Part shown: piece by piece, positions 8,192 through 35,168 of the stretch | Layout: each line of letters begins with the position of its first letter | Numbering within the stretch: position 1 is the stretch's first letter | NCBI GenBank assembly: GCA_025462755.1 | Contig: JAOAPF010000088.1 | Location: 1-64,000 of the forward strand | Direction of reading: 5' to 3' | DNA length: 64,000 nt | From: Edaphobacter sp. | GTDB lineage: Bacteria > Acidobacteriota > Terriglobia > Terriglobales > Acidobacteriaceae | Position numbers and translations under genes: made by a program | The notes under the pieces: generated by a model | Seen by the model: the letters and a program-made list of their open reading frames with translations, nothing else | What the model was told of the DNA's origin: nothing | Database searches by the model: none

Positions 8192-11100
8192 CTACCAGCC
8201 GATGCCGAATGCCATATGTTCCGGTTGTGGCGTGGCAATTGTGGTGCTCTGGTTGTTGTTGTCGTCGTAAGAGAAGCCGTATGCCAGCCCCCCAATGGAG
8301 TGGTTGTGCCAAAATTCCGAGTAGAAGTTAGCCGGCGCCGCGCCATAGTAGGCTGAGGCACTGGCCCAGTTCGCCGGAGTGAGCAGGACGTGACGGTTGA
8401 TTGCCGAACAGATCTGATTTTGTAGTTGCAGTTGCACGGCGTTCTCATCCTGCAGTTGAGGGGTGGTGCCAGGGACGCCAGTTGCCATGGTGCCGGCACA
8501 TCCAAGGATGTCCTGGGTGGAAGGCTGTTGCACGACGAAGGTCTCGCCGACGTGAGCCGAGGAAGGATTTACTTCGTTGAATGTGAGGTTCGTACCTGAG
8601 GCCGTACCCGTAAACTGGCGGCCGTTGAGGGTAATGGACACCGGCGTTGTGGCATAGCTGGACCATGCGCCCGCGACATAGCTGTCGAAGTAGTTGCCGT
8701 TGGCAGCCCCTGCGGCCAACGAGAGTTTGGCCGGCGAGAAGATGCGGAGATTGGACATGGTTGGCGGTTGGAACTGTGCAGGCACCTCGTTGGCGAACTC
8801 GCTGTCGAGCTGGGCGATCGATTCTGTGATGCCGACCTGCTGGTGGAACGTGCCGGCCGAGCCCCACACGTCGAGGGTAAGGGGCAACCCGAACTCGTCG
8901 ACCTGCGTGGTGTTGATGTAGATGGAGCCATTGCCAGCGACGTTGAATTCGTACCAATCGAAGTACGTGTTGATGTTGGGATCGGTGCCGTTCTGCGGAT
9001 TGGGCCCCGCATAACCTGTCACGTTCCCGCTCGCATCTCCATTGACCTGGATGTAGAGGGGCGCGCCAAGTGATATGTAGGCACGCGCCGAACCGAACGG
9101 CGGGATTTTGAGCAGCGTGCTTTGCGCAAGCGTGAAGGAATAGTTCCCGTAGTTCTTCCCGCCGTGAGTCAGGTGGTTCGCGGCGCTGCTGTCGTTGAGG
9201 GTGAAGTCGACGATGGTCCCATCAGCTGTGAGATAAGCAAACTTATTAGTGCTGGGATCGATCCCGATCACCGTTACGAAGACTTGGTCGTTGGTCCAGC
9301 GGCCTTTTGTGTTGTTGTTGAGATCGACCCCGATGAATCCAGGATAGATCGTATAGCTGCCGACCGAGAGGGTTGCGGACGACGACGTAACGGTGCCAGT
9401 ACCGGCCGCATTTCCCACAGTTACGCTGTACAGCCCGCCATTGTCGCTTGATGCGAGCACCGGGGTGGTGTAACTCGCGGACGTGGCGCCGGGAATCAAG
9501 ACTTGGTTTTTGAACCACTGATAGGTGAAGGGACCCGTGCCACCGGCTACAACAGTAAAGGTGGCTGTCGATCCCACATTGGCACTTTGGTTTGCTGGTT
9601 GAGTGGTGATGGTTAGGGCCGTGGCCGGGCCATAGACCTCAAACTCATACAGCGAGTAGCCGTACGGCGTTCCACGGACCGTTCCGTACATGCGCACGAA
9701 GCGGGCGCTAACGGGCGCAAACGAGATGTTCTCCACCCCGCCCTGACCTGCGGTCTGGGTGAACACAGGCGTCCAGGTCTGTGCGTCATTCGAAACCTGG
9801 ATCTGGTAAGCCTTACCGTAAGCTGCCTCCCAGCGCAGGATGACCTGGTTGACCGTCTTGGCTGTCCCAAGATCCACGTATATCCAGGATGGATCGGCGG
9901 AAGCCGAAGCCCAGCGGGTTGCCAAGTTGCCGTCTACCGCAAGAGCTTGACCCAACGTGGCATCATTTTGACTGGCACTTTCCTTCGCCGGTTGGTTGAG
10001 GGCAAGATTTGGCCCCGTGGGAGCAGTAGACTGGACCGTCAGAAGCGCCTTGGCGGAGGTCGTTGTGCCGGTGCTGTTTGTGACACTGACTGTGAAGGTG
10101 CTGCCGCTGTCGCCGGACATCAGCACCGGTGTGGTGTAGCCGGTTGCCGTCGCTCCGGCAATGGCAACGCCATTGCGCAGCCACTGGTAGGTAAAGGGAC
10201 CATCCCCACCCGCTACAACATTGAAGGTGGCGGTCGATCCCGCGTTCACCGCCTGACTCGCCGGCTGAGTGACGATGCTCGGCACGTCGGCTCCGTAGAC
10301 CTGGAACTCGTAAAGCGAGTATCCATACTGCGTTGCCTTGGCCGTACCGTACATACGGATGTAACGGTCGATAACGGCTGGGAACGTCAGTGTGTCGACA
10401 CCTCCCTTCCCTGCGGTTTGCGTGTAGACCGGAGTCCAGGTTTGTTCGTCATTCGAGACCTGGATCTGGTAAGCCGCACCGTAGGACGCTTCCCAGTAGA
10501 GAACGACCTTGTTGATGAGCAGGGGCGAACCGAGATCGATCTCGATCCAGGAGGGATCGACGAATGCCGATGACCAGCGCGTGGTAAGGTTGCCATCCAC
10601 GGCGTTCAGAGCAGCGAGATTGGCGTTCTCGTTGGGGCTCGAGGTTGCGGATTTATTGAGTGCAAGGTTAGCGACGCCGGGTGTCGGGTTCGTGACCGTG
10701 ACCGATACGCTCGAAGAGGTCACAGAACCGCCGGCATTGCTCACGACTACGCTGAAAACACTGCTGCTGTCGATGGACGAGAGTGCGGCCGTGGTGTAGG
10801 TTGCGCTGGTCGCTCCGGGGATGGCGACTCCGCCACGAAGCCACTGATACGTGAAGGGCCCGGTGCCGCCCGCCACTACCGTGAACTGCGCCTGCGCACC
10901 TGCGACCACCGTCTGGCTGACCGGTTGAGTCGCGATCGCGGGTCCTACAGGTCCATACACCTCAAACTCCCAGAGGGAATAGCCGTAGTTCGATGCACGC
11001 AGCACTCCGTTCATGCGGACGTAGCGCCCAATCACAGCGGGGAAGACAAGGTTTTCAGACCCGCCCTGACCGTTGGTCTGGTTGCATGCCGTTGTCCAGG

Positions 11101-14100
11101 TCTGCCCATCGGTTGATACCTGTATCTGGTACTGAGAGCCATAGCCGCGCTCCCAGCGCAGGACAACCTGTCCGATGGATTGCACGGAACCAAGGTCCAG
11201 TTGAATCCATTCGGCATCAGCGAAGGCGGAAGACCAACGAGTGGTGAGGTTCCCGTCGTTCGCAGCGCTCGGAGGATAGACCTGGGTGTTCTCGTCTGCC
11301 AAAGAGGTAGCCTTTGCGCCCAAGGCAAGGTTCGGACCTGCCGGAACCGGACCGGTTCCGAAGCCTGGGACCGCCGTGTCGTTGGGGCCGGTATTGCCGT
11401 TACCCGGGTTGGGGTTCGGGTTGGGAGGAGGCGGCACGGGGTTAGTCGAGACGGTGAGCCCGGCCGAGGTGCTGTTGATGGCGCTCTCACCGTTCGAAAC
11501 GATGACGTTAAAGGTAGCCCCATTGTCAGTGGATGCGGTCGGTGGCGTGATGTAGGTTGCCGACGTTGCGCCGGGAATGTTAATGCCGTTTTCGAGCCAC
11601 TGGTAGCTCGGTGCGGGCGTTCCCGTGGCGGCGACCGTGAACATCGCCGACTGGCCCACCGTTGCGGTGTGGGCCTGCGGTTGTGCCTGGATGACAGCCG
11701 CCTGGGCCGAGGAGGTTCCCAGGGTGCACAGGGTTTCGCCAGGCCAGTTGACAGTTACTTTTTCTGCCACACTGCCGTCGAAACCGACGATTGCGGTTTG
11801 GTTCGCATCGTTCGGATCCACCGTCGAGGTCCAGGTATTCCAGGGGCCGGGAAACGCATTCGATGAGTTATTGATTCCGCTTATGTCAAGCGCTTCAGCC
11901 TGCGTTGGAAGGCGCATGCCAATGCTTGAGCAATAAGCGGCGGCATCCACTCCGGTGAACTGCGACCCTATGGCGGTGTTGGTCTTGATGCTGCTGGTCC
12001 AGGTTAGGCCAAGCAGGTTATCCCGAACCAGCGAGGCGTTGGTGGGACTGGGGCTGTAGCGCTCGGTCGAGGCGCCAAGCTGTGCGATGTTATAGACCTG
12101 GAACTCAAAGAGAGAGTATCCATACTGAGTGTTTCGCTGCGTGCCGTACAGGCGCACATATCTAGCCTGGACGGTTGGGAAGGTAAGCGTCTCCGTTCCG
12201 CCCGCGCCGGCGTTGTTTGTGGTCGCAATGCTCCAAACCGTGTTGGCTGTGGGAGTCTCGCTCGTGTACTGGATCTGGTACTGAGCCGCGGAGGCGTTTT
12301 CCCAGGTGATGACGACCGTGTTGAACGACTGCACCGATCCAAGGTCGACCTGCAACCAGGACGGGTCGACACCCGGTACGAGGGTCGTGGGAGGTGCACC
12401 TGCCGTGGCGGATCCCCAACGGCTGGTAAGATTGCCATCCACAGCGTCCTCTGCACCAAGGCATCCCACGCCGCTGTAGGGCGGAGCTGTCGTTCCGTCA
12501 TTGCAGGCGTTTTGCGTGCTGCTTGACGTGGCCGATCGACCGAGCGCGAGGTTATTGCCCGGAGGGGCCAGAGTGAGCTGCGCCGCGGCGCTGGTAACGG
12601 GGACGTTAGCCGCGTTATTGACCGTGACGGTGTATGCGCCGACGTTGGCCGCATTCATCGCTGGGATGAGGTAGCTGATGGTGTTGGAGAGCTGAGTGTT
12701 GCTCGCAACAATAGTGGTCGAGCCGCCCTTGGGGGTGAACTGCCACTGGTAGGTGTAGGGTGCGGAGCCGGCGACGACCGCGGTCAACTGCACCGGCTGG
12801 TTGGTCGCAGCAATCAGGCTTGCGGGTTGGGTGACGAAGCTTACCGGCGTTGCGGCATTGACGGTGAGCACCGCGTTCGAGGACTGCACGCTGTTAAGAG
12901 GGTTACTGACGACGACGTAGAAGGTGTGCGTTCCCGCTGCCGTCAGCACGGGCGTGGTGAAGGTGTTCTGCGCGCCGTATGCAACCAGCACGTTCTCTTC
13001 GTACCACGCGTAATTGAGCTGGGGCGAACCGGATGCAACCACACTGAGCGTTGCCGTCTGACCCACGACAGCCGTCTGCGACGCAGGCTGCGTCGTGATT
13101 GCGGCGTTTACCGGCGCGACTACGGAGAGTGTGGCGGGGTTGGAGGTGACTGCACCGTAGCCGCCCGCACTTGTAACCGTAACCATGAAGGTTTCGTTAT
13201 TGTCCGCGAGAGTGGTTGCGGGCGTGGTGTAGCTGGTGCCGGTGGCGCCCGCGATGGCTGTCGTACCCATGTACCACTGGTAGTTCAGCGCTCCAGAGCC
13301 GCTGGCCGCCACGGTAAAGGTTGCCGACTTACCCGCTGTGACCGACGTGCTGACCGGCGGAACGATAATGGCGGGGGCCTGCGACTGCACCGGTGCCGGT
13401 GGAGCGACGGAGCTCAGTTGGACACTACCGCTCGCGAGACCAGGGGCGGATGCCGTGACGGTGACGGTGCCGGGGGTGAAGGTGCTGCGAAGAGCGATCT
13501 TTTGCAGGCCGCCTTCGAAGTTGAGCTCGGGGTCGCCAGGAGAGTGGAAGAAGGCGTACGGCACACCGTTGATGACGTTGCTGTTTGCCTGGGAAAAGGC
13601 GTCCTGGTAATAGTTCGTAAATAAGGGGCTGGCAACACGCTGCTGCGTACCGCCCATGTAGGTGGCCGGGCCGGTAACAGTGAAGGTGACGTTGTCGGCC
13701 GCCGTAGGAACAATATTGCCCTGCGCGTCCTGTACCTGAGCGACGACAAAGGCCGCGTCTGAGCCATTGGAAGTCCACTGGAAGCTGGTCCCATCTGGCT
13801 TCTGCAACTCCGGAACGACGGTCAGCACGATCTTGTTTTCTGTTCCGGCCGTAGTGCGCGAATCGGCGACGTTGGAGACTGCGTTGCCGTTGGCATCGAT
13901 GCACTGTGCCATGACGGTACCGGGGGCCCAGTTCACCATCCAATGGACCTGGCCAGGCATGACGGTGGTGTTTTGTGTAAGGTCGCCTACCTGGATGTTC
14001 CAGGGGTTAGGTGTCTGGTCGGCCAGGATTGCGCCAGTGAGCGGGTCTTTGTTGACGCCATTGATCAGCAAGCGGACCGCGGGACAGTTGCTAAAGGCGT

Positions 14101-16327
14101 TCTCCTGGATCGGAATGCCATTCTGATACTCATATGCGCGGTTCCAGTGATGCGCGAGCTCCACGACCGGCTTGACCGAGTAGGGCGTCCAGTTCGCCTC
14201 GTAGATGTAGTAAAGCAGCTTGGGGAAGCGGTTCTGGTCGACCATCGAGTAGCCGAGCGAACGAACGTAGTTGGCGAGGTCCACCTGTTTGCTGGTTGTC
14301 GGATCGATCCGTGTATCGACGGTTTTCTGATCCTCCGAGAAGAGACTCACCTCGCCTGGGGTGTCGGCGAAGTACCACTGCGCCATACCGAAAGTGTTGT
14401 TAGCGCGGCCCTCGCGCCAGGCTTTCAGGTAGGGCGCAGCAAAGGCTAGCTCGTTATCCCACGCGAGACCGCGCCCGGTGCCGATGTTATCCCAGTATTC
14501 GGCTCCAAACGCCGGCTTGCTGGGGTACGTCTGCTTGATGCCTGACTCGCAACCGACGCCGTCGCACTCGTCGATGCCGACGTAGTTGGAATAAGACGGC
14601 AGATAGGCACGGGTGGCCTGTTCACGCGGGTTGATGTTGTCCCACTGCGCTTCGAGGCTGGCAAGGGTACTTACGAGGCTCAGGTTATTGCCGCCGTTGT
14701 CCTCTTCCCAGTCAAGGATCGAAGGATGGCTACGATCGCGAATAATCATGTCGCGGTGAATTTCGGTCTTCAGTGTCGTATTGTCCGCCGAAGGATTGGT
14801 GAAGCTGCCTTCGCCATCGCCGCTTGGCTGGTCGATCATGATGCCGTAAGCATCCGCCGCTTCAACAAACTCTTCGCTGCTGGTGGAGTGGCCGGGACGC
14901 CAGATGTTGCCGCCGCTTGCCGCGAACTGGGCCAGGTCACGCCACACCTGCTCGTCTGGAACGGCAGATCCGAGGGCCGGGTAGTCATAGCGTCCAGACG
15001 CACCCCACAGGTGCATGGGATGGCCGTTGAAGGAGGGAAAGTTACTGTCCCAGGTGATGATGCGGATACCCAGCGGGCTCTGCACCGAGTCGACCACCAC
15101 TCCACTGACGCTGACGATGTGGTAGACCTTGTACATATAAGGCTTGCCGTAGTTCGAGTTATTCGGATACCACAGGGTTGGATTTGGGACGGTGATCTGC
15201 TGCTGAAACATCGGGGTCGCCGTGGACGGAAAGGTGGCCGCTGTCATCGGCGGCACCGATTGTGTGACAGGCGGTGCGGTGACCACGACATCTCCGTTCG
15301 CATCTACAATCTGCGTTGTCAACGTCACTTGTTGCGCCGTCGCGCTCTCATTCAGAACATTCGTTTGCACTTCGACGACCGCCGAGGCGGCAGTTGCGGT
15401 TCCGCCTGCCGCGGGAGTGATCGAGACCGTTCCAACATAGGTGCCCCAGGTCTTCTGATTGGAGTACACATTGATCGGAATATGGACGGGATTAGTTACA
15501 AATAACTTGACGTTGCGGAACAAGCCGGCCATGGCCTGGCCAAAGCGGAAGGCGCCGGAGAAGCTGGGCTGCTCGAACCACGTACTGCCACGGGAGACGT
15601 CGATGGCGATGACATTGTCTGTTCTGCCGTCCGCATGGAGATAAGGCGTAAGGTCAACGGCGACGGGAACGAAACCCACGACGTGAGTCGCATTCGCGTT
15701 GGCAGCAACCGCACTGATGCCCGGAAGCAAAGTGCCATTGATATAGACCTGCACGCCGGTGTGCGAGCCTTCGATCTCGAGCATGAACTTCTGACTCGCA
15801 TATTTCGGGTCCACCTTGAAGTGGAGCCGGTACCAGTTTTGGTTTCCGGTCAAAGAACCTTGTCCGCCGCCGGACGTCTGATTGATGAAGGTTCTTGGTA
15901 TGTTCGCGTCATAGGGCAGGCCAACCTGCTGCCAGTTGGCGCTCCCGTCCGAACTCTCCGTGAAATTGGCGATCGAATACGTCGCCGAATCCCTCGTATT
16001 CTCGTACCACCACTGGCTCTGCGGCGCATTGGAGGTAGAGGTGGCATCCCCAATGTACTCGGGAACTCCCGCCGCCAGGTTGATCGTAAACCGCTGCGAG
16101 AGAGGGAGCGAGGTCTCCACCTGTTGTGCCCGAGCCTCGCTCGAGTAAAGGGCCGCAAACAGGAGCAGGAGCACCGCAATGCGGGTCTGCTTTTCGCCGC
16201 CCTTCAAGGGACGTGAGACGAGACGTCCCATCTGGTAGAACCCAAAACGGAGTTGCCGAACGACACCCGCCAACCAAAGCGTGTCCCTATTGATTTTGTT
16301 TTGCGGAGTGGAGATAACAACGTACAT
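8192..16327 (-). CDS. Giant secreted multidomain glycoside hydrolase (GH2-like + GH64 with Ig-like and F5/8C modules)
   Basis: A 2711-residue exported enzyme; ATG at 16327 follows AAAAGGAG. A long N-terminal leader has its hydrophobic core near residues 48-60 and a cleavage site after SSEARA. Domains: GH2 sugar-binding jelly roll (about 155-250), GH2 Ig-like (about 285-410), GH2 barrel (about 420-790) and a C-terminal tail to about 975. Then Ig-like 1-3 (980-1254), F5/8-type-C 1 (1255-1412), a DUF1566/Lcl-like domain (1422-1534), Ig4, a PN-rich linker (1630-1663), F5/8C 2, Ig5, F5/8C 3, Ig6, F5/8C 4 and Ig7 (to 2324). Last is a GH64 beta-1,3-glucanase (2326-2711), with DWYEFNV and TTQVDEFGLPL supplying likely catalytic Glu (about 2460) and Asp (about 2477). 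Family knowledge suggests beta-glycan breakdown; the F5/8C modules likely bind sugars. In the GH2 barrel the usual NE acid/base motif reads NG. Confidence 0.9.
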   Translation of the reverse strand: MYVVISTPQNKINRDTLWLAGVVRQLRFGFYQMGRLVSRPLKGGEKQTRIAVLLLLFAALYSSEARAQQVETSLPLSQRFTINLAAGVPEYIGDATSTSNAPQSQWWYENTRDSATYSIANFTESSDGSANWQQVGLPYDANIPRTFINQTSGGGQGSLTGNQNWYRLHFKVDPKYASQKFMLEIEGSHTGVQVYINGTLLPGISAVAANANATHVVGFVPVAVDLTPYLHADGRTDNVIAIDVSRGSTWFEQPSFSGAFRFGQAMAGLFRNVKLFVTNPVHIPINVYSNQKTWGTYVGTVSITPAAGGTATAASAVVEVQTNVLNESATAQQVTLTTQIVDANGDVVVTAPPVTQSVPPMTAATFPSTATPMFQQQITVPNPTLWYPNNSNYGKPYMYKVYHIVSVSGVVVDSVQSPLGIRIITWDSNFPSFNGHPMHLWGASGRYDYPALGSAVPDEQVWRDLAQFAASGGNIWRPGHSTSSEEFVEAADAYGIMIDQPSGDGEGSFTNPSADNTTLKTEIHRDMIIRDRSHPSILDWEEDNGGNNLSLVSTLASLEAQWDNINPREQATRAYLPSYSNYVGIDECDGVGCESGIKQTYPSKPAFGAEYWDNIGTGRGLAWDNELAFAAPYLKAWREGRANNTFGMAQWYFADTPGEVSLFSEDQKTVDTRIDPTTSKQVDLANYVRSLGYSMVDQNRFPKLLYYIYEANWTPYSVKPVVELAHHWNRAYEYQNGIPIQENAFSNCPAVRLLINGVNKDPLTGAILADQTPNPWNIQVGDLTQNTTVMPGQVHWMVNWAPGTVMAQCIDANGNAVSNVADSRTTAGTENKIVLTVVPELQKPDGTSFQWTSNGSDAAFVVAQVQDAQGNIVPTAADNVTFTVTGPATYMGGTQQRVASPLFTNYYQDAFSQANSNVINGVPYAFFHSPGDPELNFEGGLQKIALRSTFTPGTVTVTASAPGLASGSVQLSSVAPPAPVQSQAPAIIVPPVSTSVTAGKSATFTVAASGSGALNYQWYMGTTAIAGATGTSYTTPATTLADNNETFMVTVTSAGGYGAVTSNPATLSVVAPVNAAITTQPASQTAVVGQTATLSVVASGSPQLNYAWYEENVLVAYGAQNTFTTPVLTAAGTHTFYVVVSNPLNSVQSSNAVLTVNAATPVSFVTQPASLIAATNQPVQLTAVVAGSAPYTYQWQFTPKGGSTTIVASNTQLSNTISYLIPAMNAANVGAYTVTVNNAANVPVTSAAAQLTLAPPGNNLALGRSATSSSTQNACNDGTTAPPYSGVGCLGAEDAVDGNLTSRWGSATAGAPPTTLVPGVDPSWLQVDLGSVQSFNTVVITWENASAAQYQIQYTSETPTANTVWSIATTNNAGAGGTETLTFPTVQARYVRLYGTQRNTQYGYSLFEFQVYNIAQLGASTERYSPSPTNASLVRDNLLGLTWTSSIKTNTAIGSQFTGVDAAAYCSSIGMRLPTQAEALDISGINNSSNAFPGPWNTWTSTVDPNDANQTAIVGFDGSVAEKVTVNWPGETLCTLGTSSAQAAVIQAQPQAHTATVGQSAMFTVAATGTPAPSYQWLENGINIPGATSATYITPPTASTDNGATFNVIVSNGESAINSTSAGLTVSTNPVPPPPNPNPNPGNGNTGPNDTAVPGFGTGPVPAGPNLALGAKATSLADENTQVYPPSAANDGNLTTRWSSAFADAEWIQLDLGSVQSIGQVVLRWERGYGSQYQIQVSTDGQTWTTACNQTNGQGGSENLVFPAVIGRYVRMNGVLRASNYGYSLWEFEVYGPVGPAIATQPVSQTVVAGAQAQFTVVAGGTGPFTYQWLRGGVAIPGATSATYTTAALSSIDSSSVFSVVVSNAGGSVTSSSVSVTVTNPTPGVANLALNKSATSSPNENANLAALNAVDGNLTTRWSSAFVDPSWIEIDLGSPLLINKVVLYWEASYGAAYQIQVSNDEQTWTPVYTQTAGKGGVDTLTFPAVIDRYIRMYGTAKATQYGYSLYEFQVYGADVPSIVTQPASQAVNAGSTATFNVVAGGDGPFTYQWLRNGVAIAGATATGYTTPVLMSGDSGSTFTVSVTNSTGTTTSAKALLTVQSTAPTGPNLALNQPAKESASQNDATLGQALAVDGNLATRWASASADPSWIYVDLGTAKTVNQVILRWEAAYGKAYQIQVSNDAQTWTPVFTQTAGQGGVENISFAPVSARFVRMYGTVRGTPYGYSLYEFEVYGPATALTITTQPANQSANVGSTATFTVVAGGTGPFTYQWFKNQVLIPGATSASYTTPVLASSDNGGLYSVTVGNAAGTGTVTSSSATLSVGSYTIYPGFIGVDLNNNTKGRWTNDQVFVTVIGIDPSTNKFAYLTADGTIVDFTLNDSSAANHLTHGGKNYGNYSFTLAQSTLLKIPPFGSARAYISLGAPLYIQVNGDASGNVTGYAGPNPQNGTDPNINTYFDWYEFNVAGNGSIYINTTQVDEFGLPLTLDVWGSAGTFHQQVGITESIAQLDSEFANEVPAQFQPPTMSNLRIFSPAKLSLAAGAANGNYFDSYVAGAWSSYATTPVSITLNGRQFTGTASGTNLTFNEVNPSSAHVGETFVVQQPSTQDILGCAGTMATGVPGTTPQLQDENAVQLQLQNQICSAINRHVLLTPANWASASAYYGAAPANFYSEFWHNHSIGGLAYGFSYDDNNNQSTTIATPQPEHMAFGIGW

Positions 16328-17327: not shown

Positions 17328-18533
17328 TTAATTTAGGCTGGCTACGGATGGTTGAACGCAATTCTGGGTTGAGAGAGCTGGGGGCGCGTTGGGTTTCAGG
17401 TGCAGCAACGGTGTCCGGTCAGCCAGGCTGCGTATGTACGCGTCGGTGAAGACAGTTGCGCAGGCACGGGTAAGATGAGAACTGTCCGGCAGAGTGAGGT
17501 TCTTCGCGGCGGGAAGATCGTCAATGTGAATGCCGTTCGTGTACGTGTAGGCGAGGAGGGCGTCCCATCCCTTGGCTCTGGGTAAGTGCTTGTCTTCCAC
17601 CGCGCGCAAATCGGGCGCGGAGGACGGGCGCACGAAGACCACATCGCCACCGCGAGCACGGATCTTGTCGACAGCGATCTTTGTTCTGACAAGAACCGCT
17701 TTGATGCTTTTGTCGTCGAGCGGCTTGGGCGAAAAGAGCTGATGCCAGACGTTTCGGGTATGTTCGCTCATGCGTTGATCGTGTTCGAGTCTGCGCCAGA
17801 TCCAGGCTTGCCCGTCCGCGGCCGTCTCCTGGACCTTCCAAGGGCCATCGTGAGGGCCTTGCACTCCAGGCCTCCAATCCCGATCGAGGCGGAAGACAAG
17901 TGTGCTGAGTTGATAGTCGTCGTCGAGCATCGCCAAGCCACGAGAGATTACGCGCTGGATCAGGAAGGATCCGCGTTTGGACGGCGACTCCCAGCGGCTC
18001 AACTCAAGCGCCTTGTGCGGCCGCACGGCCGCAAATTGTGTGTCGAAGTACGCGGTTTCGGCCATTCCAACGATGGTCAGGCCCCTGAAGTGAGGATCGT
18101 CGGCCAGGTTCTCGAGGATGGGCAATCCACTCCCGCCCTGAATCGCAAGTTGTAGCGGGCGAAGCCCGGTGAGTTGCGCGGCGCGATCCAGGTCAGTGTC
18201 GAACCAGATACGCGAGTCGCCGATGATGGCCACGGGCACGTCGCGCTTATCCACCTGCCTTCGCAATTCAGCCCAGCGATCATAATTATCGCCAAGATCG
18301 CCTGGGAAGAGCTCAAGAGTGCGCATCTTCCACTCCCAGAGGGACGCGAGCACGATCACGAGGACCATAACGATGAGCGCCATAGCGCGCCAGGGCTGGT
18401 CGGGAATGTCGCGTTCCGGGACCGGCTGCGCGATACCTGGACGGTCGGCTGCGGTATGCCGCAGGCCGGAGGGCAGGGCATGCCGGCTTGTGTCGCGGCC
18501 GATGTCCTCAGAACTGGAAATAGATGAAGCCAT
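17328..18533 (-). CDS. Membrane-anchored SGNH-like hydrolase/acetyltransferase partner of the MBOAT protein
   Basis: 401 residues: a cytoplasmic N-terminus of about 50 residues, one transmembrane helix (MALIVMVLVIVLASLWEW), then an extracytoplasmic domain. AIIGDSRIWFDTDL carries the GDS nucleophile block, and LPDSSHLTRACA near residue 355 supplies the Asp-x-x-His pair of SGNH/GDSL enzymes. Arrangement and neighbourhood match AlgJ/AlgX- or PatB-type proteins that take acetyl groups delivered across the membrane by an MBOAT protein and place them on an extracellular polymer. It overlaps the upstream MBOAT gene by 26 bases, so translation is probably coupled. The polymer is not identified; O-acetylation of an exopolysaccharide is inferred. 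Confidence 0.8.
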   Translation of the reverse strand: MASSISSSEDIGRDTSRHALPSGLRHTAADRPGIAQPVPERDIPDQPWRAMALIVMVLVIVLASLWEWKMRTLELFPGDLGDNYDRWAELRRQVDKRDVPVAIIGDSRIWFDTDLDRAAQLTGLRPLQLAIQGGSGLPILENLADDPHFRGLTIVGMAETAYFDTQFAAVRPHKALELSRWESPSKRGSFLIQRVISRGLAMLDDDYQLSTLVFRLDRDWRPGVQGPHDGPWKVQETAADGQAWIWRRLEHDQRMSEHTRNVWHQLFSPKPLDDKSIKAVLVRTKIAVDKIRARGGDVVFVRPSSAPDLRAVEDKHLPRAKGWDALLAYTYTNGIHIDDLPAAKNLTLPDSSHLTRACATVFTDAYIRSLADRTPLLHLKPNAPPALSTQNCVQPSVASLN

Positions 18534-19923
18534 TGCTCTCTCCGTGTTGAATTACCACTGCGAAGGCCATGATCGTCCACAAGGCGGTCAGCGCTGCGGG
18601 GTGTGCGCGCGCGATCGCCTCCTCAAGCGTCTGGTTGCGCATGGAGCAGTGTGCAAGCACCAGGCCGGCGATGATGACCGTCGTGGTCAGAAGGTAGACA
18701 GCGGCCAGCACGGGTTCGACATGCGCGTTTCTGCCGAACATACCGCCGAGGATCAGGGTAGCTTGGTGAACGGTCTTTGCTCGAAAGAAGACCCAGGCGA
18801 TGTTGACGAGGACGAAGGTCAGCAGCCCGAGTCCCGCAGCCGCGGCGCGTCCCGGCTGATACCCAGAGAACTGCTTGCGGAGCCGTCTTTCGACTGCGAG
18901 ATAGAGGCCGTGCAGCCCGCCCCAGACCACGAAGGTCCAGCTCGCGCCGTGCCAGAGCCCGCCGATGAGCATAGTGGCCATAAGGGAGAAGTAGGTGCGC
19001 ACGTTTCCGTGGCGGTTGCCACCGAGGGGGATGTAGACGTAGTCGCGCAGCCAGGCGGAAAGGGTGATGTGCCACCGGCGCCAGAAGTCGGTGAAGCCGA
19101 TGGCCGCGTACGGAAAGCGGAAGTTGTCCGAGAGAGCAAAGCCCAGACAGAGGGCCGCTCCGATCGCGGTGATCGAGTAGCCGGCGAAGTCGCAGAAGAT
19201 CTGTCCACTGAAGGCCAGCGTCGCGACCCAGGAATCGACAAAGCCGGGGATGGCCTTGCCGTCATAGACCTTTTCTACGACCGGGCTGAGGAAGCCGTCG
19301 GCCAACACTGCCTTCTCAAACAGACCCAGGGTCATCAGGGCTAAGCCGAAACGCAGCTTATCCGCTGTTGCTTTATGGGGGACCTCAAATTGCGGAACCA
19401 ATTCGGTTGGCCGCATGATCGGTCCGGCCACCAGATGAGGAAAGAACGTAACAAAGAGGGCGTAGTCGAGGAAGCTGTGCGCCGGCGTCGCACGGCGCAG
19501 ATAAATGTCCAGGGTGTAAGACATGGTGGCGAAGGTGTAGAACGAGATGCCGACGGGCAGGACAATACTCGATTGCGGAGGGGTGTATTTGAATCCCGCC
19601 AGCGCTGCCAGGTGGGAGAAGTTCTCGACGAGGAAGTGGCCGTATCTGAAGTAACAAAGTAGCCCAAGGCTGACGACGACCGAGAGTAGCATCCAGGCGC
19701 GGCGCTTCCATTGCTGCTCTGCCTGCGCGAGTCCACGAGCGGCAAACCAGTCGATCACTGTCGATAACCAGAGCAAGATCACAAAGGGCGGATTCCAAGC
19801 TGCATAGAAGATGTAGCTGGCAATGAGAAGGTTGATTTTCTTCGCCCTCCATGGGAAGGGCATAGCGTGCAGGATAAGAACGATGGCAAAGAAAACAACG
19901 AAGATTAGTGAATTAAAGATCAT
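18508..19923 (-). CDS. MBOAT-family membrane O-acyltransferase (AlgI/PatA-like)
   Basis: About 471 residues, rich in transmembrane helices. ATG at 19923 (MIFNSLIF) follows GGAGGG and begins as AlgI proteins do; an upstream in-frame start at 19962 would add 13 residues. Signature elements: SYIFYAAWNP, PVGISFYTFATMSYTLDIY, the FPHLVAGPIMRP motif, FWRRWHITLSAWLRDYVYIP, and the catalytic His in GGLWHGASWTF. The family transfers acetyl groups from a cytoplasmic donor across the inner membrane. With the overlapping SGNH gene it forms a two-gene acetylation operon. No polysaccharide polymerase genes are visible nearby, so the acceptor may be made elsewhere. Confidence 0.93.
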   Translation of the reverse strand: MIFNSLIFVVFFAIVLILHAMPFPWRAKKINLLIASYIFYAAWNPPFVILLWLSTVIDWFAARGLAQAEQQWKRRAWMLLSVVVSLGLLCYFRYGHFLVENFSHLAALAGFKYTPPQSSIVLPVGISFYTFATMSYTLDIYLRRATPAHSFLDYALFVTFFPHLVAGPIMRPTELVPQFEVPHKATADKLRFGLALMTLGLFEKAVLADGFLSPVVEKVYDGKAIPGFVDSWVATLAFSGQIFCDFAGYSITAIGAALCLGFALSDNFRFPYAAIGFTDFWRRWHITLSAWLRDYVYIPLGGNRHGNVRTYFSLMATMLIGGLWHGASWTFVVWGGLHGLYLAVERRLRKQFSGYQPGRAAAAGLGLLTFVLVNIAWVFFRAKTVHQATLILGGMFGRNAHVEPVLAAVYLLTTTVIIAGLVLAHCSMRNQTLEEAIARAHPAALTALWTIMAFAVVIQHGESNGFIYFQF

Positions 19924-19969
19924 GCCCACTCCCTCCGATGCGGAGTGGAATACCGGAACCACGTTCCGA

Positions 19970-26430: not shown

Positions 26431-27246
26431 TTACAAATCGTTGTGATCGCAGGAAGTGCCGGTGCGAGGAACTCTAGCTTGAGCGGCTCTGTTTGGTTTG
26501 CTAAGCAGATACGTGTCCATAATCCACCCGTTTCTCTGTCTCTTCTCGTGGCGAACTTTTTCAATCATGCCCGCAATTTCACTGAGCTTTCCAGATAGGA
26601 GGATCTCTTCTTCCATTCCCAGATAAGCACCCCAGAAAATGTCAAGCTCCTCATCGAGCAGACTGTTGAAGGAGCATTGTCCATCCAGCATCACGATTGT
26701 TCTCTCTGCAGTGCCACTCAGGCCGGCAGAGAGTTGGCGGCCTGTCGTAATGACGATTGATTCACCTATCCCATTTAGAGAGATCTTGTGGCGGGCGGCC
26801 AAGACTTGAATACTGGTGATGCCTGGGATCACTTCGAACTCAAAACAAAGCCTTCCACAAGCAATGATGTGTTCGATCACTCTGAGGGTGCTGTCGTAGA
26901 GTGATGGGTCACCCCAGACGAGGAAACCGCCGCACTGATTCTCTTCCAGTTGCTGTGCGATCATCTCTTCATAGACCAAGGCTCTTTGCCGATGCCAGAG
27001 TTCAACGCGAGTAGTGTAATCCGATATGGTCGTGTCACGAACAGGATCATCTGCCTCGACCACACGATATGATGTTTTCTCGATATAGCGTTCACATATC
27101 TGTTTTCTGAGGTTGACGAGGTCTTGCTTCGCTTTGCCCTTGTCCATGAAGAAGAATACGTCTACGAGGTTCAGTGCTTTGATCGCCTGCACTGTGATGT
27201 ATTCTGGATTGCCGGCACCAATGCCGATCAGATAGAGCTTTCTCAT
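26431..27246 (-). CDS. cobF: Precorrin-6A synthase (deacetylating), CobF
   Basis: 271 residues of the tetrapyrrole (corrin/porphyrin) methylase fold. It opens KLYLIGIGAGNPEYITVQAI and has GGFLVWGDPSLYDSTLRVIE, the SAM-site glycine loop, and FEVIPGITSIQVLAARHKI. CobF methylates C1 of precorrin-5 and removes the acetyl unit, giving precorrin-6A; it belongs only to the aerobic route. The residues YRVVEADDPVRD and the overall length separate it from other methylases. The last 20 residues are unusual and run towards the IS debris; the true C-terminus may have been altered there. It is the last gene of the minus-strand operon, 45 bases behind cobK. Confidence 0.92.
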   Translation of the reverse strand: MRKLYLIGIGAGNPEYITVQAIKALNLVDVFFFMDKGKAKQDLVNLRKQICERYIEKTSYRVVEADDPVRDTTISDYTTRVELWHRQRALVYEEMIAQQLEENQCGGFLVWGDPSLYDSTLRVIEHIIACGRLCFEFEVIPGITSIQVLAARHKISLNGIGESIVITTGRQLSAGLSGTAERTIVMLDGQCSFNSLLDEELDIFWGAYLGMEEEILLSGKLSEIAGMIEKVRHEKRQRNGWIMDTYLLSKPNRAAQARVPRTGTSCDHNDL

Positions 27247-27291
27247 AAGGGACCATCACTCCGTGGGATACAACATCGCAGTCGGGGACAT

Positions 27292-28086
27292 TCACAGCAG
27301 TTGTGCAAGTTTTTGAAGCACGTCATCTGGTTGGGGTACAGTCGGGACGTTGTGTTTCCGTGGGCGATCGATCATGACGACTGGAATCCGGAGGGCTCTC
27401 GCCGCCTCGATCTTTGAATAGGTTGCTGTGCCACCACTATTTTTGGACACGATGTGGCTGATGGACTCAGAGCGAAGCATCTGCAGTTCATCGTTGAGAT
27501 GAAACGGGCCACGCTTCAGAATCAGTTTTGAGTTGGCGGACAACATTTCGCTGGGGGCATCGATGGCACGCACCAGAAACCATGCGTCTTCGCAGTTGGA
27601 AAATGCGCCAAGCGCCTGCCGTCCAACGGAGAGAAACACACGGTTGCGTTGATGGTTCACCATTGACGCAGCGGCAAGTGCATCGGGTACCGTGCACCAG
27701 CAATCGTGCTCGTTTGGCTCCCACGGTGGGCGTTCCAACGCGATGAGCGGAAGGCTTAAGGTATTGCAGGCCAACTCGGCGTTGCCACTTATCTTCGAGG
27801 CGAAGGGATGAGTCGCATCGATGACCACTCCGATATTTTCATCGACCAAATAAGAGATCAATCCGGCAACCCCGCCGAAGCCTCCAACTCGAACAATCCC
27901 GTCGGGCAGCCTGGGCTGGCTCACTCGGCCGGCGAGGGATGAGATCACGGTCACATCGGATCTGGCTGCCAAGTGCGTGGCAAGCTCCGATGCTTCGCTT
28001 GTTCCACCCAGAATGAGAACTCGTGGCGCATGAGTTCGAGTTGGGGTTGTAACGGATTGCATCTCGATAACCTTGTCTGTGTCCAT
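27292..28086 (-). CDS. cobK: Precorrin-6A reductase CobK
   Basis: About 264 residues. The NADPH-dependent reductase domain starts VLILGGTSEASELATHLAAR and includes RVGGFGGVAGLISYLVDENI, the DATHPFA motif typical of CobK/CbiJ, RVFLSVGRQALGAF, and a closing KNSGGTATYSKIEAARALRI. It reduces precorrin-6A to precorrin-6B. Start: ATG 28086 lies four bases after the cobM stop and would be coupled to it; ATG 28062, with AAGG ahead, is also possible. In the operon it sits between cobM and cobF. Confidence 0.92.
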   Translation of the reverse strand: MDTDKVIEMQSVTTPTRTHAPRVLILGGTSEASELATHLAARSDVTVISSLAGRVSQPRLPDGIVRVGGFGGVAGLISYLVDENIGVVIDATHPFASKISGNAELACNTLSLPLIALERPPWEPNEHDCWCTVPDALAAASMVNHQRNRVFLSVGRQALGAFSNCEDAWFLVRAIDAPSEMLSANSKLILKRGPFHLNDELQMLRSESISHIVSKNSGGTATYSKIEAARALRIPVVMIDRPRKHNVPTVPQPDDVLQKLAQLL

Positions 28087-28090
28087 AGCG

Positions 28091-28849
28091 CTATTGATCG
28101 GAAGTATCCGTACGATCCCTTGCCGCGGAGTAGAGGTAGCTCTCGCCGAAGGGCGACTGGTCGAGAGACCGCCCAACCAGAATGAGGGCATTGCGATCGA
28201 TACCGGATGGCTTGACTATCCCATGAATGGTCGACAGCGTGCCGCGCAGGATGCGCTGGTCGGGCCAACTGGCCCTGAAGACGACGATGACGGGACAGTC
28301 TTCGCCGTAGAGGGGTAACAACTGGGAGGATACCTGGTCGAGGTTCATGATGGAGAGGTGAATGGCGAGTGTCGCGCCAGTGCGGCCCAGGGTTACGAGA
28401 TCTTCTCCGGCAGGCATCGGTGTGGATCTTGTCGAGGTGCGAGTGAGAATGAGCGTCTGCGCTATGTTTGGCAACGTGAGTTCCTGATTGAGTGCCGCGG
28501 CTGCGGCGGCGAAAGCAGGAACACCCGGAGTGACATCGTAAGGAATACCAAGCACCTTTAGGCGGCGGATCTGCTCTGCCATCGTGCTCCAGATGGAAAG
28601 ATCGCCGGAGTGGATGCGAGCGACATCGAGTTCCTTCGCGTGTGCCTCGGCGATCTCCGCGATGATCTCATCAAGGTTCATCTGAGCCGTATCGACGATT
28701 CGGGCGCCGAGTGGTGCATGGGCAAGTATTTCCCTGGGCACGAGCGAGCCGGCATAGAGGCAGACCGCTGAGTTGTGGATGTGATCGCGGCCGCGAAGGG
28801 TGAGGAGGTCGGCGGCTCCTGGGCCTGCGCCGATGAAGTGGACGATCAT
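28091..28849 (-). CDS. cobM: Precorrin-4 C11-methyltransferase CobM
   Basis: 252 residues, a corrin methylase that adds the C11 methyl group to precorrin-4. The start [20 protein letters not shown] contains the family glycine loop; CLYAGSLVP, the [14 protein letters not shown] segment and [15 protein letters not shown] are typical of CobM/CbiF, as is the late block [20 protein letters not shown]. Its ATG overlaps the cobE stop by four bases (ATGA), and cobK follows four bases after its stop, so the three are translationally coupled. Confidence 0.95.
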
Positions 28850-29241
28850 GGACGCACCGTTATGGGAAGAGCCGCGACGGCACAGGTACAGAAGCGGCCT
28901 TTCGTTTGCGGTACGATGAGACGCGCAGAGGGACCAAGCGAGGCTAGTGCGGATGCTTCTGCAACGTTGGCGGTGCGTGTTTTCGAGAGGGCAAATGAGG
29001 AGTGCGTGGTGATTCCTGCGACGCCTGCAAGGGCGCTCGCCGGGAAGAGCACAAGGCGGAGCGACAGCTTCGAGGCTACGATCTCGCCTATGGAAGCGCG
29101 ACGGTCGACGGTTGCAATGACGGTGCCCGATGGTATTGAGCCGACGGATGACTCGATGAGACGGATTACATCATCGCTGGTAGCGCGGGACGAGCAGCCG
29201 ATGCCGATGGAGAGATGCTGGTTCTGGATGATTTCAGTCAC
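28846..29241 (-). CDS. cobE: CobE / CbiG C-terminal domain protein
   Basis: About 131 residues from GTG 29241, which overlaps the cobL stop as GTGA; an upstream ATG at 29259 would overlap cobL by 22 bases. The CbiG_C fold is recognisable: [20 protein letters not shown] near the start, then [18 protein letters not shown] and [19 protein letters not shown], ending [11 protein letters not shown]. In aerobic organisms CobE is required for normal cobalamin yield, but its reaction is unsettled. Being inside a strictly overlapping cob operon supports the call. Confidence 0.85.
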
Positions 29242-30464
29242 GGCTTGGTCACCGTCCATTGAGTAATCGGCATCATAGGCCGCCATACGTGCGATTCGCC
29301 GATGAGATCGGCACGGGATACCATCATCCGTGTCAGATCGCCTCCGTGCAGTGTATGCCGTTCAGCAAGGCAGGCTTCGCTCTGGAGCGTGACTGCGTTT
29401 GCGACGAGACGGCCGCCGGGGGGAAGCACGGCCCAGCAAGCGTCGAAGAGATCGTCGTTGGCGACGCCTCCTCCTATGAATATCGTATCGGGTGGGCGCA
29501 AACTTACAAAGGTTGCGGGCACAGTTCCCTGTATGACCCTCAAGGTGGGTACACCGAGACGCACGGCATTCTTCCGGATTCGAACTGCCCTGTCCTCTCG
29601 CGCTTCAAAGGCAATGCAGGAGCACGATGGATGAACACGCATCCACTCGATACCGATCGATCCGGTGCCGGCTCCGACATCCCAGAGGGTTTGGTTTGGT
29701 AGCGGGGCGAGCCGGGCGAGCGTCACCGCGCGAACCTCCCGCTTGGTCAACTGCCCATCTGTATCAAAGGTATCGTCCGGTAAACCCGGAGCGAGGGACA
29801 GCGGCCTGGCCGTCGTGTCGGGAGCGCAGAGTACTGCCATGAGATTCAGCTTGCCGCACTGCTTGTTCAGCCAGCATTCCGCTAGTTCCCTAATGTTGCG
29901 CTCTGAGGAACCACCCAGATTTTCGAAGACATCAATCTTGCTTGATCCGTATCCAGATTCCGTCAGGAGCCGAGCGACGGTCGCCGGCGTGCTGCCGTCT
30001 TCGGAGAAGATTACAAGTCGTTGATCAGGATAGAGATGGCGAAGCAACTGCTCTACCGGTCGGTTGACAAGCGTAATCAGGGTCGTCTCCGCCATCGGCC
30101 AACCAAGTCGCGCACAGGCGAGAGAGAAAGCGGAGACCTGCGGAATAACGCGAAACTCGGTTGCGACAAGGTCGCGGGTGAGAGGTACTCCCACACCGTG
30201 GAGCATCGGATCGCCACTGGCGAGCACAGTCACTCTCTTCTTCCCGCGATACTCCGTTTGGATTTGCTGCACGGCTGGGGTCATCGGAGAAGGCCAAGGG
30301 ATACGGGTTGCAGAAGAACCGGCAGTTGGTACGAGGGCAAGGTGGCGAGCTCCTCCGTACACCAACTCAGCGGACTCGACTGCTCGTTTGGCCTCATCGT
30401 TCAGTCCATCCCAGCCATCTTCGCCGATGCCTACGATCGACAACCAATGCTCAGCGGCAGTCAT
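29238..30464 (-). CDS. cobL: Precorrin-6Y C5,15-methyltransferase (decarboxylating) CobL
   Basis: 408 residues, the usual CbiE+CbiT fusion. Residues 1-200 are the corrin methylase part (LSIVGIGEDGWDGLNDEAKR; VLASGDPMLHGVG; IPQVSAFSLACARLGWPM). Residues 215-408 are a class I SAM methyltransferase (LTKREVRAVTLARLAPLPN; DVGAGTGSIGIEWMRVHP; the FIGGG loop; VLPPGGRLVANAVTL). It methylates C5 and C15 of precorrin-6B and decarboxylates ring C, giving precorrin-8X. ATG overlaps the stop of cobIJ (ATGA) and its own stop overlaps cobE. Confidence 0.96.
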   Translation of the reverse strand: MTAAEHWLSIVGIGEDGWDGLNDEAKRAVESAELVYGGARHLALVPTAGSSATRIPWPSPMTPAVQQIQTEYRGKKRVTVLASGDPMLHGVGVPLTRDLVATEFRVIPQVSAFSLACARLGWPMAETTLITLVNRPVEQLLRHLYPDQRLVIFSEDGSTPATVARLLTESGYGSSKIDVFENLGGSSERNIRELAECWLNKQCGKLNLMAVLCAPDTTARPLSLAPGLPDDTFDTDGQLTKREVRAVTLARLAPLPNQTLWDVGAGTGSIGIEWMRVHPSCSCIAFEAREDRAVRIRKNAVRLGVPTLRVIQGTVPATFVSLRPPDTIFIGGGVANDDLFDACWAVLPPGGRLVANAVTLQSEACLAERHTLHGGDLTRMMVSRADLIGESHVWRPMMPITQWTVTKP

Positions 30465-31987
30465 GCGCCATAACTCCTGTCGCCATAGCTCCGGGGAGTG
30501 TAGATGAGCTTCCTGGCGTCCGACAATGCAATCGCCCGAGTTGTTGAGGAGCCAATGAGGACGATGGTTTGCATATCGGCCAGCGAAGGATCGAAGTGCT
30601 CAAGATCGGTAATAATAGTTCGTTCGTCGGACCTGCCGATGCTGCGTGCAAGGACAACAGGCGTCTCAGGGCCTCGGTGTTTGGCGATGATCGTCCGCGC
30701 CTCGGCGAGCTGCCATAGCCGTTCCGATGAGATCGGGTTGTAGATTGCGATCGCGAAGTCGGCGGATGCCCCGGCTTCCAGTCGCTTCACCACGATTTCC
30801 CAAGGTTTGAGCCGGTCGGAAAGCGAGATGACGCAGAAGTCGTGCCCTAGAGGAGCTCCCACTCTCGAAGCAGCTACCTGCATAGCCGACAATCCGGGAA
30901 TGATGCGAATGTCCAGCGAGCGCCAGGCTGGCGGTCCCTGGTCCACACATTCCAGAACAGCCGACGCCATGGCGAAGATGCCCGGGTCTCCAGATGAGAC
31001 GACGCAAACGCGACGGCCTGATTCGGCAAGCGAAAGAGCGTGTCGTGCGCGGTCCGCCTCAACCTTGTTGTCGGAGCCGAAGCGGCGCTGACCGGATCTC
31101 ACGGGGATTCGATCGAGATAGGTGTGATAACCCACGAGGTCGGTCGCCTCGGTCAGCGCTTGCTGAGCTTCGGGCGTGATCCAGCCAGCAGCACCCGGGC
31201 CAAGACCAAGGACGGAGATCCAACCACGACTCCGAATGGTTTCTTCCCGCTGGGACTGACTTGCATCGGGAATCAGGATGAGCGAAAAGTAAGGGACATG
31301 GATCGGGTCGACTTCGCGGAGCGAGATGATGCGTTCGGCAGCCATGGTCGCTCGTTCGATGAAGAGTGCTTTGTCCGCGAGGCCGGCCTTATCGATGGCC
31401 CGCTTTACCTTCGCGAAGTTTCGGCCGAGCTTCATGATGGCAAAGGCGCCCTGCTGGCTTAGCTTTGCGATCAATACGTCTTCCGAGAGAGTTCCGGGTA
31501 GCACCGTGAACTCGGCGTCCCTGCGGACGAGCGGCGTTCCAAGCTGTGCGGCTGCGCCCATAATCGAGGCAACTCCAGGAATTACCTGCGTGGAAAAACG
31601 ATGAGCGAGACGGTCATGAAGATACATATACGACCCGTAAAAGAACGGGTCGCCCTCGCACAAGATGGCCACATCTCGGCCGTTTGCAAGGTGGTCCGCG
31701 ATCTGTTCGGCCATCTCGTCATAGAACTGCGACAGCGCGACCTCGTATCCTCCGGGATGGTCAGTCTGCTCTGTCGTAACTGGGTACATCATCGGGAGCT
31801 CGACTTGGCCATGAATCAGTTCTGAGCAAACGATCGAACGAGCGTTGCTCTGTCCATGTCTGGCACACGGATAGGCAATGACCTGCGCCTGCCTGAGCAC
31901 ACGCTGCGCTTTGACTGTAATCAGTTCCGGATCGCCGGGACCGACACCGACTCCGAAGAGACGTCCGCTTCGTGCGTCTGCGCTCAT
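30461..31987 (-). CDS. cobIJ: Fused precorrin-2 C20- and precorrin-3B C17-methyltransferase (CobI-CobJ)
   Basis: 508 residues made of two complete corrin methylases. Residues 8-240 are CobI (GVGVGPGDPELITVKAQRVL; ILCEGDPFFYGSYMYLHDRL; VIPGVASIMGAAAQLGTPLV). Residues 253-500 are CobJ (ISVLGLGPGAAGWITPEAQQ; CVVSSGDPGIFAMASAVLE; IIPGLSAMQVAASRVGAPLG; FAIAIYNPISSERLWQLAEA). The first half makes precorrin-3A, the substrate of CobG; the second performs ring contraction of precorrin-3B to precorrin-4, the product of CobG. CobI-CobJ fusions are known in other phyla. It overlaps cobH and cobL by four bases each. Confidence 0.95.
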   Translation of the reverse strand: MSADARSGRLFGVGVGPGDPELITVKAQRVLRQAQVIAYPCARHGQSNARSIVCSELIHGQVELPMMYPVTTEQTDHPGGYEVALSQFYDEMAEQIADHLANGRDVAILCEGDPFFYGSYMYLHDRLAHRFSTQVIPGVASIMGAAAQLGTPLVRRDAEFTVLPGTLSEDVLIAKLSQQGAFAIMKLGRNFAKVKRAIDKAGLADKALFIERATMAAERIISLREVDPIHVPYFSLILIPDASQSQREETIRSRGWISVLGLGPGAAGWITPEAQQALTEATDLVGYHTYLDRIPVRSGQRRFGSDNKVEADRARHALSLAESGRRVCVVSSGDPGIFAMASAVLECVDQGPPAWRSLDIRIIPGLSAMQVAASRVGAPLGHDFCVISLSDRLKPWEIVVKRLEAGASADFAIAIYNPISSERLWQLAEARTIIAKHRGPETPVVLARSIGRSDERTIITDLEHFDPSLADMQTIVLIGSSTTRAIALSDARKLIYTPRSYGDRSYGA

Positions 31988-33887: not shown

Positions 33888-34029
33888 GGAGCACCTACTT
33901 CCTGAGCGATAGCGGGGGAGATCGACCTCGGTCTGAACAAGTGCACCTCACCAAAAAGCGGGAAAAGAGGCACAAAGCTCAAAGACCTATGAGCGATTGC
34001 TTCCCGTTTCCACGCGGAGAAGAATCAAG

Positions 34030-34210
34030 CCTATCTGAGGTAGGTCTCCTGATTGACAGGCTGAGCGCTTTATCCATAACGCTCTGGAGTCTTCGCCTTC
34101 CTCGGTGATCGAGTGGCTTACGAAGAGTCCGTCTCCTGAACACAGTGGCGGGACCATGCCGGAGTCACACCGGCTTCCCTGTTATGCCCTCGCGAGCACC
34201 CCAGAATCTT
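34030..34210 (-). promoter_or_regulatory. Cobalamin riboswitch upstream of cobG operon
   Basis: Minus-strand leader with the consensus blocks in order: gggaagccggtgtgactccg followed by gcatggtcccgccactgtg, then the downstream B12 box tcaggagacctacctcag at about 34035-34053. This matches the adenosylcobalamin riboswitch core. It lies between the phosphatase gene and cobG and should shut off the cobG-cobF operon when cobalamin is abundant. The expression platform is not clear from the sequence. Confidence 0.92.
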
Positions 34211-34243
34211 TACCTAATCTACCAGACTGATTCTCGCCGCGCT

Positions 34244-34837: not shown

Positions 34838-34880
34838 GGTGTCACCTCAAGAGAGCCTACCATCGTGTGATGGCGAAGCC

Positions 34881-34909
34881 TTGACACCCTTTGGGTGGTT
34901 CAATACGCT
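34881..34909 (+). promoter_or_regulatory. Candidate sigma-70 promoter of cbtBA
   Basis: TTGACA at 34881-34886, 17 bases, then TACGCT at 34904-34909, 31 bases before the cbtB start codon. The -35 is perfect, the -10 weak. There is no complete cobalamin riboswitch in this 100-base gap, unlike the two neighbouring transcription units. Confidence 0.45.
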
Positions 34910-34939
34910 CGGAGTCAAGTAATGTTTAGGAGACCTGTA

Positions 34940-35158: not shown

Positions 35159-35168
35159 CCAGTCGCTC

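Follow-up and report, generated by a model that had tools for sequence, protein, structure and literature searches.

A 2,711-residue GH2-GH64 protein of Edaphobacter and a GH2 clade without the canonical acid/base glutamate

Positions 1 to 64,000 of contig JAOAPF010000088.1, from an Edaphobacter sp. assembly (GCA_025462755.1), form the stretch of DNA analysed here, hereafter the window. One of its genes encodes a very long protein that carries two glycoside hydrolase (GH) modules: GH2 near the amino terminus and GH64 at the carboxyl terminus. The GH2 module belongs to a clade that has lost the canonical acid/base glutamate of its family, and members of this clade recurrently occur together with GH64, in the same frame or as adjoining genes. 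These features suggest a β-1,3-glucan degrader in which the GH2 proton donor would be displaced.

One gene, two glycosidase modules

The open reading frame (ORF) occupies 8192-16327 on the minus strand, as do all of its features given below, and is read from 16327 to 8192; the plus strand there has numerous stops. (L-numbers denote loci, and G-numbers genomes, in the survey.) A preliminary description, made from the letters of the window, had proposed this ORF of 2711 residues without naming a strand, and it stands. Orthologues lie in long frames at 11 same-genus loci, one of which (L052) ends at an assembly gap, with 44-73% identity to the window protein; a chance ORF is therefore excluded. 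In the GH2 tree the nearest rows to the window protein come from Granulicella aggregans and one same-genus genome, which places the window in an Acidobacteriaceae genome.

The GH2 module comprises residues 105-975 (13403-16015). Pfam detects its parts: Glyco_hydro_2 (E 1.3e-11), Glyco_hydro2_C5 (6.6e-13), the N domain (2e-6), and, at the borderline, the TIM barrel (1.1e-4; 21.9 bits, the cut-off being 21). The barrel is secured by a match to NCBIfam GalA (E 2e-66), by sequence matches to GH2 enzymes in the PDB (E 4e-55), and by an AlphaFold model (predicted local distance difference test score, pLDDT, 84.6) that matches GH2 structures with Z up to 33.6. An ordinary β-galactosidase of the GalA or GalB kind was considered and rejected, the NCBIfam scores being 224.5 and 192.5 bits against cut-offs of 900.

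The GH64 module comprises residues 2332-2707 (8207-9334). It covers positions 3-368 of the 370 in profile PF16483 (E 4.9e-82; 276.6 bits, the cut-off being 27) and aligns along its length to solved enzymes, with E 1e-75 to 9vp9. Two catalytic residues are kept: E2460, the YEF glutamate (8948-8950), aligned to the 5h9x glutamate that is alanine in 5h9y and equivalent to the proton donor; and D2477, the TTxVD aspartate (8897-8899), equivalent in the PDB alignment to the nucleophile/base. The accessible text of PMC8394091 names a glutamate as the donor and an aspartate as the nucleophile/base of GH64, and laminaripentaose as the product of a GH64 enzyme. Given the full alignment and the retained pair, this end of the protein is very probably an active endo-β-1,3-glucanase, and we hold its activity with high confidence.

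The laminaripentaose-producing β-1,3-glucanases of this family (3gd0, 5h9x, 5h4e, 9vp9; GluY) thus share with the window protein a full-length catalytic module and the Glu/Asp pair. The context differs: the GH64 enzymes named in the accessible text of PMC8394091 have a single catalytic module, either non-modular or with a RICIN domain, whereas here GH64 closes a 2,711-residue protein that also carries GH2. A GH64 enzyme in an acidobacterium is mentioned in the available part of PMC6252331.

Between the enzymes lies an arm (9344-13402) with the module counts proposed in the preliminary description: seven Ig-like modules (seven Ig_3 stretches in Pfam; E 2e-40) and four F5/8C modules (four stretches; E 5e-92 for PF00754 and 4e-98 for PF22633, cut-off passed). 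Its view that one polypeptide bears two glycosidase folds and carbohydrate-binding-type modules is supported. F5/8C modules 1 to 3, whose limits were set by eye, occupy residues ~1259-1414 (12086-12553), ~1666-1792 (10952-11332) and ~1887-2012 (10292-10669). Module 4 (residues ~2107-2233; 9629-10009), the only one compared alone, is alike along its whole length to the discoidin (CBM32) modules 4zy9 and 4zz5 of a glucanase/chitosanase, its nearest matches in the PDB (E 4e-42). We take these two structures to be DD1 and DD2 of Paenibacillus sp. IK-5. The DD1 and DD2 discoidin modules bind chitosan, according to the accessible text of PMC12154041; the DD1/DD2 ligand residues were not confirmed there, and no such binding is claimed for the F5/8C modules here.

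A further likeness is offered by LamA, a 190-kDa Paenibacillus β-1,3-glucanase that is, like the window protein, large and modular with an F5/8C (discoidin) module. According to PMC2789033, that module binds chitin better than lichenan and lichenan better than Avicel, and it strengthens antifungal action. LamA differs in its catalytic module, which is GH16; the abstract of that paper names neither GH2 nor GH64.

The arm also holds residues 1416-1546 (11690-12082), for which a DUF1566-like domain had been proposed. That assignment (Lcl_C/DUF1566) is no more than plausible: Pfam reports nothing of the kind for the protein at E <= 1, and one relative, L052, has a sub-threshold Lcl_C match (26.9 bits against 34.9). 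The segment itself recurs, with phmmer matches at E <= 1e-5 in at most 74 of the 84 family ORFs, some of them off-target in the GH2 part. Its model, for which the window sequence was combined with 23 of the 69 rows among the matches listed, has a pLDDT of 81.6 and weak C-type-lectin-like matches (lowest Foldseek E 4e-3; none reaches 0.001), with query TM-scores (template modelling) of 0.38-0.51 for the top five rows, which include one intimin and one Bdellovibrio domain.

At the amino terminus, residues 33-67 (16127-16231), counted from a later start at M33, read as a probable signal peptide: the stretch is hydrophobic and ends ARA-QQ. Judged by this N-terminal stretch, the protein is probably secreted, as the preliminary description held. 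The accompanying proposal of a cell-surface location is not supported, because the Pfam matches include no anchor.

A GH2 clade without the canonical acid/base glutamate

The scan of named genomes, restricted to the best 80 of 88 relatives, gave 79 loci, some genomes contributing more than one, so that the counts are of loci and not of species. Together with the window and four same-genus loci these make up 84 GH2 rows, one of which stops short of residue 610. At the position of the canonical acid/base glutamate the window protein has G545 (14693-14695), and the motif reads W-E-x-x-N-G where ordinary GH2 enzymes have W-S/G-x-x-N-E. Across the 84 rows this residue is Gly in 82, Ala in 2 and Glu in none; the adjoining N544 is kept in all. 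The NE pair is intact in each of 20 ordinary GH2 relatives compared. The preliminary description was thus right about the N-terminal GH2 barrel, by sequence and by fold, and overlooked the missing acid/base residue.

Several other residues of the module are invariant. E610 (GAEYW; 14498-14500), the presumed nucleophile, is present in all 83 rows that cover it. Two more glutamates occur in 84 of 84: E506 (QPSGDGE; 14810-14812), after strand 3, and E541 (the Glu of WE; 14705-14707), at the end of strand 4. At R446, R477, H480, W651 and E659, no row that covers the position has any other residue.

The best PDB match to the GH2 module, by both sequence and fold, is 6hpd (Z 33.6; root-mean-square deviation 2.3 Å; 722 residues), titled 'The structure of a beta-glucuronidase from glycoside hydrolase family 2'. 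It shares with the window GH2 the fold, the loss of the NE glutamate, the glutamate after the strand-4 tryptophan and the loop-3 glutamate. It differs in having Trp (NW) rather than Gly or Ala at the acid/base position, in an identity of at most 34%, and in being a 990-residue chain without a joined GH64. From the Trp at that position, 6hpd is probably T2KN75, the GH2_21 β-glucuronidase of an ulvan-degrading cascade.

GH2_21 offers a published precedent for loss of the residue. According to the accessible text of PMC12243196, Trp replaces the acid/base in a GH2_21 β-glucuronidase reported to be active; Lys, Arg and Asn often stand there too; and a second glutamate, E402 of T2KN75, is proposed to take over the role. 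By its numbering this E402 would correspond to the loop-3 glutamate, E506 here. In the window clade, too, an acid/base is replaced and a loop-3 glutamate conserved, but the replacing residue is Gly or Ala.

As the NE acid/base is absent, an ordinary β-galactosidase or glucuronidase cannot be assumed; judged by its motifs, the GH2 is not of the canonical-mechanism galactosidase/glucuronidase type. The nearest named models label it β-galactosidase, a label to which the active site lends no support. More probably than otherwise, the module is active with a displaced proton donor, for which E506 would be the best candidate and E541 the second.

Recurrent pairing with GH64, and its spread

The 79 named loci place the GH2 clade in Acidobacteriota, Pseudomonadota, Myxococcota and Fibrobacterota. 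Hosts include Acidobacteriaceae, Dyella, Rhodanobacter, Luteibacter, Burkholderiaceae, Chitinibacteraceae, Janthinobacterium, Nitrospirillum, Hyalangium, Fibrobacteres contigs of one metagenome-assembled genome (MAG), and others. GH64 lies C-terminal in the GH2's own frame at 59 of the 79 loci, and in 64 of 84 rows with the five added. The architecture is widespread and not singular.

Nor is GH64 as a rule a small stand-alone enzyme in the phylum of the window, as had been supposed. Among 396 genomes sampled from it, GH64 exceeds the cut-off in nine (11 at E <= 0.001), and in seven of the nine the frame that holds it measures 2,644-3,059 residues and in every case also carries a GH2 of this clade. 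Of the 299 genomes in the order that includes Dyella, 26 carry GH64; 16 of the 28 matches fall in frames of 2,146-2,826 residues, whose GH2 content was not checked individually.

Twenty of the named loci lack a fused GH64. Three of these (L059, L076 and L116) sit at contig ends and one (L090) is gapped, leaving 16 complete. E. aggregans (L052/L090) was considered as a GH64-less case and rejected: its ORF meets a stretch of N, with a GH64 frame beyond. A separate same-strand GH64 gene lies nearby in six of the 16: directly downstream of GH2 in L073, L079 and L081 (after about 95, 80 and 110 bases), about 3 kb downstream in L113, about 160 bases upstream in L127, and 2.8 kb upstream in L125, with a BT_1002-like gene in between. 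Searches of 21 whole genomes found GH64 in 19.

Single loci add other enzymes. L081 reads, in one direction, a 4pew-like gene, GH16, GH2 and GH64; the N-terminal part of the first gene matches 4pew ('putative secreted protein') with 514 bits. We take 4pew to be a GH55 β-1,3-glucanase. L123 has three GH2 genes in tandem, next to which lie a thaumatin gene and, on the other strand, a GH64-like gene below threshold. The fused locus L083 is flanked by another GH64 gene in divergent orientation. Silvibacterium bohemicum S15 has both arrangements: a fused GH2-GH64 gene (L056), and GH2 followed by a separate GH64 (L079). A striking expansion is seen in G459 (Fibrobacteres MAG fen_1185), with 21 stand-alone GH2 copies (L121, L123, L125, L127, L128 and L133-L148), partly in tandem, and 16 GH64 match rows.

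The fused GH64 domains do not form one group. Those of L053 and L070 cluster with the separate downstream GH64 of L073, L079 and L081 (support 99); a second tree, of trimmed domains, with another program and 35 of the rows, recovers the same two lineages with support 97. The GH2 of L053 and L070 falls among the ordinary fused GH2 rows. A single group of fused GH64 rows is rejected by the approximately unbiased (AU) test (28 rows versus 7; p ~6e-100; long branches present). The split in GH64 without a split in GH2 indicates that the modules came together twice independently, or once with a replacement in addition, as far as these trees can be taken. The separate downstream GH64 genes carry malectin and fn3 modules, as does L053, which fits gene fusion.

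In the GH2 and GH64 trees alike, Dyella and Rhodanobacter rows are nested within Acidobacteriaceae. The 13 Acidobacteriaceae GH2 rows as one group, a group chosen post hoc, are rejected (AU p = 0.0006; 31 rows). By these trees the whole gene passed from Acidobacteriaceae to Dyella/Rhodanobacter: an 8-kb enzyme gene would have moved to Gammaproteobacteria. Two loci from MAGs labelled Eremiobacteraeota and Melainabacteria (L080 and L076, respectively) also stand among Dyella and Acidobacteriaceae rows, and are possibly mis-binned contigs.

Several neighbours were noted in passing. Upstream of the window gene, on its strand, 17328-19962 encodes an MBOAT O-acyltransferase and a 401-residue partner without a Pfam match; these could be a polysaccharide O-acetylation pair. 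The run of tetrapyrrole methylases, a sulfite-reductase-like protein and CobN at 26431-42336 looks like a cobalamin biosynthesis cluster. Nine flank ORFs tested at seven loci (L043, L045-L048, L050 and L053) had mixed content and no glycosidase. Antisense to the Hyalangium GH2 gene, a frame of 2343 residues is open on the minus strand of L082 (9866-16897), probably an artefact of base composition.

Substrate, mechanism and alternatives

The favoured reading, to which we give a probability of about 0.5, is a secreted two-enzyme degrader of β-1,3-glucan, whose GH2 would use a displaced donor to release a sugar from an end or a side chain. Through the modules of its arm (Ig-like, F5/8C and lectin-like) the protein would stay attached to a composite wall, most probably that of a fungus. 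There the GH64 would cut the β-1,3-glucan backbone through its Glu/Asp pair, and the GH2 would take off a terminal or side-chain β-linked sugar, with E610 as nucleophile and E506, or failing that E541, as donor. The action of one module may expose substrate for the other.

The preliminary description had pointed to fungal or plant β-glucan, and the β-1,3-glucan link is borne out from several directions: the GH64 catalytic residues are kept; GH2 and GH64 are paired in relatives; single loci pair GH2 with GH16, a GH55-like enzyme or thaumatin; module 4 of the arm is nearest to glucanase/chitosanase modules; and the LamA discoidin module (PMC2789033) is a precedent. As the common context, β-1,3-glucan is likely; the fungal wall as natural target is favoured with less assurance. 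Side-chain removal and product trimming by the GH2 appear about equally probable. For the Gly/Ala clade as a whole, a broader and more tentative idea is that its displaced donor (E506) strips a β-1,3-glucan substituent so far unrecognised, selection having brought about the joining with GH64 at least twice and the spread of the joined gene between phyla.

Several observations weigh against this picture. In ten of the 16 loci that are complete but unfused, the available DNA shows no GH64 match, and among the 21 genomes searched whole, G449 (L091) and G456 (L108) carry GH2 and no GH64 match. (In both of these Burkholderiaceae loci a gspF-like type II secretion gene lies downstream of GH2.) A polysaccharide-utilisation operon was sought around the window gene and not seen: the 11 window ORFs tested (ten and one more, not every gene), including an efflux protein, the MBOAT acyltransferase and cobalamin-type enzymes, contained no glycosidase. 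The peptide QPSGDGE[GN], one of two search patterns, contributed to the choice of the loci, so that the invariance of E506 is inflated in the locus set; in the Fibrobacteres copies found by profile, the three glutamates are kept with NG or NA in 16 of 16, and 12 of these do not contain that peptide (16 of the 21 copies were read; L134 and L137 duplicate rows L121 and L127). The tree groups 6hpd with the clade (Shimodaira-Hasegawa-like approximate likelihood-ratio support 100), a placement that is unsure because 6hpd, the one solved GH2 included, sits on a long branch with 47% of columns filled. Lastly, the accessible part of the open-licence literature yielded no characterised member of this exact GH2 clade.

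The role of the GH2 could be read in two other ways. It might be an exo-enzyme, akin to an exo-β-1,3-glucosidase, that trims GH64-released oligosaccharides from the non-reducing end and removes no side chain. The laminaripentaose released by a GH64 enzyme (accessible text of PMC8394091) would suit this, as would GH2 pockets, described as fit for exo action in the available text of PMC12243196, and the adjoining GH64, GH16 and GH55-like genes, which target the same backbone. The nearest characterised kind, GH2_21, has β-glucuronidase activity, however, and the same portion of PMC12243196 mentions no GH2 exo-β-1,3-glucosidase; we consider pure trimming rather unlikely. Alternatively, the GH2 might be catalytically dead and serve as a binding module for GH64, as Gly or Ala at the canonical acid/base position in 84 of 84 rows could suggest. 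A dead enzyme fits poorly with the invariance, wherever covered, of the nucleophile, the loop-3 glutamate, R446, R477, H480, W651 and E659. Moreover, the frames of the 21 copies in the Fibrobacteres MAG, at 935-1057 residues, leave no room for a GH64 in the same polypeptide, and the GH2_21 β-glucuronidase is reported active without the glutamate (PMC12243196, as accessible). Loss of catalysis is accordingly improbable.

The choice of substrate is likewise open to other readings. GH2 and GH64 might attack different polymers of the same material, the fusion providing common targeting and not stepwise action. The arm is long and variable among the relatives scanned (F5/8C, malectin, fn3), and two of the 21 genomes with GH2 have no GH64, both compatible with such a division of labour; yet GH2 is repeatedly fused to, or adjacent to, members of two GH64 lineages, and this, together with a β-1,3-glucan gene cluster, points to one substrate; separate polymers seem quite unlikely. 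Plant callose, an algal or bacterial β-1,3-glucan, or lichen material could replace the fungal wall as target: record titles give soil, peat, fen and lichen-related sources or species names. We regard a non-fungal target as somewhat unlikely in view of F5/8C module 4, nearest to glucanase/chitosanase modules; a GH18 gene near one Fibrobacteres copy (L128); host names that refer to chitin (Andreprevotia chitinilytica, Amantichitinum); and another Luteibacter species that is an endohyphal symbiont (accessible text of PMC11165876).

Each module is known singly, and loss of the acid/base within GH2 is published. For the GH2-GH64 fusion, the Gly/Ala clade and its link to GH64, no description was recognised in the accessible part of the open-licence literature. 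From the loci compared, the GH2-GH64 pair recurs, fused or as adjoining genes, in unrelated soil bacteria. If the favoured reading of a two-enzyme β-1,3-glucan degrader is true, one of the best-studied glycosidase families gains a clade with a moved proton donor, and that clade a testable substrate: whatever hangs on the β-1,3-glucan of the fungal wall. It would also point to a protein usable as a tool, possibly with two activities directed at that wall.

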